From Periplaneta americana (Eukaryota; Arthropoda; Insecta; Blattodea; Blattidae): a stretch of 64,000 bases of DNA. A program made the position numbers and the translations under genes. The notes beneath the pieces were generated by a model. It did no database searches. It worked only from the letters and a program-made list of their open reading frames with translations, and was not told where the DNA came from. This document shows positions 40,240 to 54,503 of the stretch, one piece after another. The stretch covers positions 212,467,029 to 212,531,028 of the forward strand of contig NC_091118.1 in assembly GCF_040183065.1 (NCBI RefSeq), given 5' to 3'. Positions within the stretch are counted from its first letter, which is position 1; every line of letters starts with the position of its first letter.

Positions 40240-41004
40240 CTAAATCCCACATTCTTCTGTGCCGTCACATTCTAAGTACGCCGACAGCCACTTTTTAACA
40301 CCAGGCTTTGCCACTTCCAGGGGAGTTTTATGCAGATAATTACGGGCATGTATATCTGCGCCTTTCTGTACCAGAAGACGAGTTAAGTTCACATTGTCTT
40401 CGACAGCTGCATAGTGTAGAGGTGTTTCCAGTTTGTCGTTTGCAAGATTTACGTCAGCACCTTTAGCTATCAGCAAATCTATCGCTTTTACGGCGCCTAA
40501 CCCAATAGCAATGAAAAGTGCAGTCTCGTTACGGTTGTTTCTAGCGTTCACATCGGCTCCGTAGAGTATGAGACGGTTCACCAACTCGTCATTGTCGTTC
40601 ATGGCTGCGAAATGTAACGGCGTGTCCAGAATCTTGTTCCTGCAGTCTCCAGGAACTCCATTCTCCAACAGCAGCGTGGCTAGTCTGAGTCGGTTGTACG
40701 CCGCGGCCCTCATGAGCGGGGAGTCCCCCTCTTCCCTGGACCGGATGGTGAGGTTCGCGCGGTGTTTGATGAGGACGAGCGCCTTGCTCTGGTCGTCGTG
40801 CTGAGCTGCGATGTGCAAGGCAGCGAAGCCCCTGTCGTCCAGGACGTCCGGGTCAGCTCCACAGTCCAGCAATGCGTCTAGAAGCTGAGACGTCCCGTAC
40901 CTCGCAACTGATGCTGCAGACGTCCAGTCAGCACTGATGTTTCTGTGCTTCTCCAACATGTCGAGGTAGCGTTTCAACTTCTTCCAGCTGGCGTTAGCAG
41001 GTTC
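40240..41004 (-). CDS. Terminal ankyrin-repeat exon
   Basis: This is 254 residues plus a stop (40242-40240), opening after TTTTTTTGCAG with EPANASWKKLKRYLDMLEKH. About six ankyrin repeats follow, with the diagnostic TPLHFAAMNDNDELVNRLIL, GADVNARNNRNETALFIAI, GADVNLANDKLETPLHYAA and GADIHARNYLHKTPLEVA. Conserved T/S-PLHxAA and GADVN turns are intact and there are no frameshifts, so this is not a decayed copy. The tail ECDGTEECGI contains two cysteines. The exon is markedly GC-richer than its flanks. The binding partner cannot be read from sequence. Confidence 0.93.
   Translation of the reverse strand, partial: EPANASWKKLKRYLDMLEKHRNISADWTSAASVARYGTSQLLDALLDCGADPDVLDDRGFAALHIAAQHDDQSKALVLIKHRANLTIRSREEGDSPLMRAAAYNRLRLATLLLENGVPGDCRNKILDTPLHFAAMNDNDELVNRLILYGADVNARNNRNETALFIAIGLGAVKAIDLLIAKGADVNLANDKLETPLHYAAVEDNVNLTRLLVQKGADIHARNYLHKTPLEVAKPGVKKWLSAYLECDGTEECGI

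Positions 41005-54503: not shown

Follow-up and report, generated by a model that had tools for sequence, protein, structure and literature searches.

The window, by which we mean the whole 64,000-nucleotide stretch of DNA analysed here, lies at C2:212467029-212531028 in the 3.23 Gb genome of Periplaneta americana. A first-pass annotation, made from the letters alone, had proposed that four minus-strand exons with matching phases assemble into about 410 aa. The exons indeed join into an uninterrupted frame that encodes 410 aa and ends in a stop codon, the three introns are all GT-AG with matching phases (1, 1 and 0), and the window protein agrees at 410/410 residues with NCBI protein P0001, 'ankyrin repeat domain-containing protein 7-like isoform X1 [Periplaneta americana]'; together these points confirm the proposal. 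The features of the gene are as follows.

54197..54503, minus strand: exon 1, acidic N-terminus with the PGRP-LC-type cRHIM, predicted to be cytoplasmic; phase 1 at its end
54261..54326, minus strand: cRHIM core, residues 60-81, CSEVQLGHRLHYHAPVVINQNF
46200..46331, minus strand: exon 2, transmembrane, phase 1-1; missing in isoform X2
46204..46275, minus strand: membrane span, residues 122-145, with WIRRR just before it (from hydropathy and charges)
43231..43259, minus strand: exon 3, a juxtamembrane linker of 29 nt (NNREKRINQ) that runs from phase 1 to phase 0
40240..41004, minus strand: exon 4, ankyrin repeats and stop codon, 254 aa
40270..40917, minus strand: six ankyrin repeats and C-terminal capping helix, residues 186-401 (from helix pairs in the structure model, and Pfam)

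A second NCBI isoform, X2 (P0002, 366 aa), lacks exactly the 44 residues of exon 2, which carries the membrane span. Because X2 runs from exon 1 directly to exon 3, the transmembrane (TM) exon appears to be optional. NCBI isoform pairs are generally based on transcript evidence. The cRHIM, the skippable TM exon, the short linker exon and the ankyrin exon stand in one gene model, and two things support the assignment of all four to one transcript: NCBI has an identical model, and a paralogue described below repeats the four-exon plan. Among the Pfam matches of P0001 there is no PGRP (Amidase_2), Rel homology or NACHT domain. The earlier suggestion that GC-rich exons argue for selection fits exons 1, 2 and 4 (GC 0.485, 0.606 and 0.524, against 0.359 for the window) and fails for exon 3 (0.241); selection itself is indicated by the small cRHIM core considered below.

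Within the window, the exons of the gene family and their ankyrin parts match exons 1 and 4 of this gene only. No other host gene is apparent among the 19 open frames of at least 150 aa, a search that genes with short exons would escape. About 1 kb of tetranucleotide repeats (41075-42124) ends 70 bases before the acceptor of the ankyrin exon, and a 1.3 kb repeat array at 34195-35523 stays open in several frames on both strands. The open fragments at 25273-25851, 42039-42596 and 29788-30450 resemble what we take to be ends of non-LTR reverse transcriptases and a hAT transposase.

The RHIM-like N-terminus named by the first-pass annotation is borne out, in the more specific form of a PGRP-LC-type cRHIM. 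The score of the Pfam RHIM model (PF12721) is 14.5 bits for the full-length protein and 16.6 bits for residues 1-156, short of the curated cut-off of 20. This says little, because the PGRP-LC of Apis and a PGRP-LC-like protein of Drosophila innubila (P0176, P0198) are likewise unmatched by Pfam RHIM at E up to 1. Direct comparison was more discriminating: in BLASTP, with E-values for single comparisons, a P. americana PGRP (P0162) aligned with the window N-terminus over 61 ungapped residues (E 5e-9), the P. americana PGRP-LE-like protein P0171 was identical at 12/20 positions of the motif (E 9e-5), and Apis PGRP-LC matched the N-terminus with E 9e-5. A cRHIM-bearing PGRP-LC-like protein of P. 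americana, P0187, left the motif of P0001 unaligned and aligned elsewhere only (E 0.016). When a chimeric query of window residues 1-156 and a PGRP stretch of the same genome was used, 44 of the best 120 of 627 database proteins aligned over at least 80% of the query, reaching its N-terminal half; these were mostly PGRP-LC, LE, LA, LF or unnamed proteins. Many of the remaining matches listed aligned over about half of the query, namely its PGRP part. The cRHIM pattern fitted 46 of 118 other proteins from this search, against 0 of 118 ankyrin controls.

We then compared the window protein with a profile built from 32 distinct 32-residue stretches of insect PGRP-LC-type proteins, and with a second profile from which the P. 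americana rows had been removed; neither comparison is blind, since the window N-terminus was part of the source query and the window itself satisfies the pattern by which the segments were chosen. With the second profile, residues 1-156 scored 16.3 bits for the best domain and 17.8 bits over the whole sequence (full protein, 14.5), compared with 6.0 bits for the best of 2000 shuffles and 0.6 for the highest-scoring of 118 ankyrin proteins. The full profile gave the window 24.3 bits, the best shuffle 5.2 and the best ankyrin protein 4.8. For the shuffles, hmmsearch returned scores in 1194 of 2000 cases with the second profile and in 1182 with the full one, the others lying below reporting. The shuffle and ankyrin-protein controls lead us to reject a chance RHIM match, and homology of the window N-terminus to the PGRP-LC-type cRHIM is supported at the level of sequence. 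Beyond P. americana, a search of 891 candidates with residues 1-200 found no relatives at E 0.001; it covered proteins of 0.55-1.75 times the query length with shared words, and relatives annotated outside that range would escape it.

The resemblance to PGRP genes extends to exon structure. In the one PGRP gene compared, that of P0162/P0164 on C14, a cRHIM exon with a phase-1 end and a GC donor leads to a phase 1-1 TM exon and then to the PGRP exon, and the two NCBI isoforms differ by the TM exon, as P0001 differs from P0002. The combination of a phase-1 cRHIM exon with a phase 1-1 TM exon is found in the window gene and in P0162/P0164, in both of which the TM exon is skippable, and, as regards phases only, in the paralogues g1 and g2 introduced below. 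In the TM exons of both the window gene and the P0162/P0164 gene the sequence W-[LI]-R-R precedes the span, and by eye the tryptophan/arginine stretches ahead of the membrane are alike. At L022 (C14; ~6261 and 308-415), the P0162/P0164 gene has the GC donor behind its cRHIM exon, and skipping of its TM exon gives membrane and TM-less isoforms. Of the 19 PGRP-domain matches that the genome yielded, 13 sit together on a single strand within 2.2 Mb of C14 (C14:78863365-81065172; loci L002, L004-L009, L011-L015 and L017), a cluster with at least two cRHIM exons inside it.

The C-terminal part of the window protein consists of tandem ankyrin repeats of the 33-residue, helix-turn-helix kind (Pfam Ank_2, E 6.8e-33), and the predicted structure contains six helix pairs and a C-terminal cap, in agreement with the earlier estimate of about six repeats. 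Block means of model confidence exceed 90 from residue ~190 to 400; the model is confident for the repeats only (residues ~186-401) and carries no information on orientation. The 50 fold matches listed from the PDB are ankyrin, gankyrin, EHMT1 and designed or other repeat proteins. Among the best 60 of 459 solved sequences, ankyrin-1/2 and designed repeats stand on top and none is named I-kappa-B.

A comparison of the window N-terminus with the whole genome (13/13 candidates scored) turned up ten matches with E no higher than 10, two of which resemble chance. The others are listed here.

C2: exons 1 and 2 of the window gene itself (two of the ten matches)
C2:212558339-212558641: cRHIM exon of g1, 56%; 27 kb past the window end, the upstream neighbour
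C2:202824353-202824595: cRHIM exon L064, 58%
C2:161623408-161623614: cRHIM exon of g2, 41%
C2:202689818-202689928: cRHIM exon L065, weak (E 0.73; 9.5 bits by profile)
C14:78969315: cRHIM exon of the P0162 gene (E 0.018)
C14:80471842: cRHIM exon L066, inside the PGRP cluster (E 0.11)

With the profile lacking P. americana rows, best-domain scores were 17.3 bits for window exon 1, 30.0 for g1, 25.9 for L064, 16.5 for g2, 9.5 for L065 and 28.3 for L066, the best of 500 shuffles of each reaching 5.6 bits or less. Pfam RHIM gave no match to g2 at E up to 1.

The neighbouring gene g1 has a cRHIM exon with CSDVQVGHRLHYHGPVTVNQTF, a 120-nt TM exon, a 29-nt exon and an ankyrin exon whose 1025 aa are a minimum, since it runs beyond the piece fetched; joined using the phases of the window gene, these exons are open over 1168 codons. 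Its 29-nt exon agrees with window exon 3 at 19/29 bases and has the same phases; it was chosen by this resemblance as the best of 25 AG..GT-flanked 29-mers in the interval, the next candidate agreeing at 13. Because the g1 join is open with the same exon order and phases, it strengthens the gene model in the window. The more distant g2 (C2:161.62 Mb) combines a cRHIM exon with CSDIHVGPRLHYHCPVVINQNF, a TM exon of 156 nt bounded by phase 1 on both sides, and a 264-aa ankyrin exon, all within ~7 kb; a counterpart of the 29-nt exon was not found there. At least three predicted genes (window, g1 and g2) share the new domain combination. The cRHIM exons L064 and L065, for which no linked ankyrin exon was seen here, may belong to further genes of the family. 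The count is a lower bound. An ankyrin exon at C2:202805142 (L067) is close in wording to that of g1. In the 20 kb upstream of two other ankyrin exons, L028 and L030, there was no match to the cRHIM pattern and no clear TM exon. None of the 19 genome matches of the PGRP domain (PF01510; 32/32 candidates scored) lies on C2, and on this count a PGRP domain on the same chromosome is rejected.

Comparison of the paralogues reveals weak constraint over exon 1 as a whole, with dN/dS of 0.56 (window-g1) and 0.62 (window-L064); for pairs with g2, silent sites are saturated in this comparison. By Nei-Gojobori counting, the 22-codon core gave 0.050/0.295 = 0.17 (window-L064) and 0.153/0.704 = 0.22 (window-g1), and the 50 codons ahead of it 0.53 and 0.68 respectively. 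Within exon 1, conservation seems to be concentrated in the cRHIM core, and because the counts over 22 codons are small we take this as an indication of constraint.

A single membrane span at residues ~122-145 is predicted by hydropathy, as the first-pass annotation had it. Residues 103-121, before it, contain 6 K/R and 0 D/E, and residues 146-156 (11 residues), after it, 3 K/R and 1 D/E. Together with PGRP-LC homology, these charges favour an orientation with the N-terminus inside and the C-terminus outside, as in PGRP-LC. The ankyrin exon of the window contains 5 N-glycosylation sequons in 254 aa (shuffle P 0.0044), compared with a mean of 1.08 in 118 database ankyrin proteins, none of which is as dense; g1 has 16 in 1025 aa and g2 has 7 in 264 aa. 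In 1000 shuffles the counts for window, g1 and g2 were equalled and never exceeded. L067, with 4 sequons in 474 aa against a shuffle mean of 3.6, is at chance, as is L028 with 1. A less favourable control is provided by 29 further ankyrin frames of the same genome (L028-L056), three of which match the window density: L040, which is g2, and L048 and L053, long frames on C16 that are sequon-rich and linked to no cRHIM. Sequon density is thus not special to this family within this genome, and this control weakens the argument for topology. Cysteines are absent from the ankyrin parts of g1 (1025 aa) and L067 (474 aa), a condition found in only 4 of the 118 controls; the window exon has four. Because the sequon and cysteine evidence is mixed, outside placement leans mostly on charges and PGRP-LC homology; taken together, charges, homology and sequons suggest that the ankyrin repeats lie outside the cell.

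In two published accounts, PGRP-LC and PGRP-LE bring cRHIMs together, whereupon amyloid forms and IMD is recruited, and Relish is cleaved and released (PMC9531809, PMC9496462). We consider it probable that the window gene encodes a PGRP-LC-type receptor of the IMD pathway in which ankyrin repeats replace the peptidoglycan-binding ectodomain, and that it is one of a few paralogues on a single P. americana chromosome. In such a type II protein the ankyrin repeats would face outward and probably carry glycans; their clustering, or the binding of a ligand to them, would bring the cRHIMs together, and the gathered cRHIMs might then nucleate IMD amyloid and switch on Relish. In its simplest reading, clustering via the ankyrin part would feed or dampen the cRHIM/IMD step. 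The TM-less isoform X2 would be the cytosolic counterpart, as PGRP-LE is to PGRP-LC. The first-pass annotation had suggested that the protein could be a receptor, adaptor or decoy of the IMD pathway; its link to PGRP-LC and IMD is supported by cRHIM homology, intron phases and the isoform pair that skips a TM exon, and any of the three roles would be a putative one.

The window protein resembles PGRP-LC in its acidic N-terminal cRHIM tail, single predicted TM span and large C-terminal part, but has no PGRP (Amidase_2) domain, having ankyrin repeats and an extra 29-nt exon instead. Isoform X2 resembles PGRP-LE as a TM-less cRHIM protein, and the cRHIM of the PGRP-LE-like P0171 is closely similar to that of the window (12/20), although ankyrin repeats stand where PGRP-LE has its PGRP domain. 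Some fungal NLRs carry an amyloid signalling motif at one end and repeats as a sensor at the other. The window protein would be like them in the way it works, with no homology claimed, and differs in having a TM span and no NACHT domain among its Pfam matches. We found no description of a RHIM-TM-ankyrin protein in the open-access literature (titles and the starts of abstracts among the leading hits, with subscription journals mostly outside the scope). The new feature here, a PGRP-LC-type cRHIM tail followed by a TM span and ankyrin repeats, suggests, as judged from predicted genes, that these immune receptors or regulators form a family not described before.

A different possibility is that the protein acts as a decoy or brake, like Pirk/Rudra or PGRP-LF and without a PGRP domain. 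Its cRHIM would mix into PGRP-LC/IMD assemblies and poison them, or remove receptors from the surface, and the ankyrin part would merely position it. The cRHIM is of the same type as that of PGRP-LC, and a TM-less isoform exists; moreover, Pirk is reported to have a cRHIM and contacts the cRHIMs of PGRP-LC and PGRP-LE, and Rudra binds both receptors (PMC9496462, PMC2483946). Pirk and Rudra differ in that the passages concerned do not describe them as membrane-spanning ankyrin proteins. We think a decoy unlikely: the model shows a well-folded ankyrin part, whose length varies greatly among paralogues (254 aa, 264 aa and 1025 aa or more), and this is more than a decoy would appear to need.

The protein could also be a cytosolic cRHIM-ankyrin adaptor or an I-kappa-B-like regulator, in which X2, or a TM form with the ankyrin repeats inside, binds Relish or IMD. 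Relish or an NF-kappa-B protein of the p100 type provides the likeness, in that Relish is reported to combine a cRHIM with ankyrin repeats (PMC9496462); because of this, for isoform X2, which has no TM span, a cytosolic role beside Relish is a rival to be taken seriously. The sequon-rich ankyrin frames L048 and L053, which have no link to a receptor, are also consistent with repeats kept inside the cell. Against this, charges and PGRP-LC homology favour N inside and C outside, no solved sequence among the best 60 of 459 is named I-kappa-B, and the window protein has a TM span and, among its Pfam matches, no Rel homology domain. We judge such a role for the protein improbable, and reject an origin from Relish on the absence of that domain.

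It is very improbable that the gene is a relic, a fusion of neutral effect or a copy in decay that now plays no role. The dN/dS of exon 1 between paralogues and the search with residues 1-200, which found no homologue outside the species, would fit such a copy, but all four exons are intact, the cRHIM core seems to be held back from change, and g1 keeps the four-exon plan and an open frame. A wrong join, with the ankyrin exon coming from another transcript, would be eased by long introns and by the simple repeat right before exon 4, but we give it almost no credence and reject it, since NCBI makes the same join in two isoforms, g1 repeats the order and phases of all four exons, and g2 has its cRHIM, TM and ankyrin exons close together.

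Returning to the receptor reading, we tentatively put forward a broader form of it, which is possible and perhaps applies to other cockroaches too. P. americana would have a family of surface receptors in which the PGRP domain has been swapped for extracellular ankyrin arrays of differing length, with different, probably protein, ligands and a shared cRHIM/IMD amyloid, and in which a splice switch yields cytosolic sensors of the same specificity. To our knowledge, the surface receptors of the IMD pathway are of PGRP type. If the proposal is true, the pathway accepts non-peptidoglycan inputs through the swap of a sensor exon onto a PGRP-LC tail, and these proteins are an unusual case of ankyrin repeats being employed extracellularly.

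Elsewhere in the genome, where 149 of 998 candidate ankyrin frames were scored, single-exon ankyrin arrays with a candidate phase-0 acceptor like that of exon 4 occur at L029, L031 and L037 (C9), L030 (C5), L032 (C17) and L054 (C13). The arrays on C9, C5, C17 and C13, some of them sequon-rich, may be further receptor ectodomains, for which N-termini were not found. Very long open ankyrin frames, of up to ~2500 aa, are present on C16 (L036, L038 and other loci). One stretch of L038, HRTFMEFFAAKWF, looks like a NACHT-ATPase, and we presume that NLR-like ankyrin genes may exist in the cockroach.
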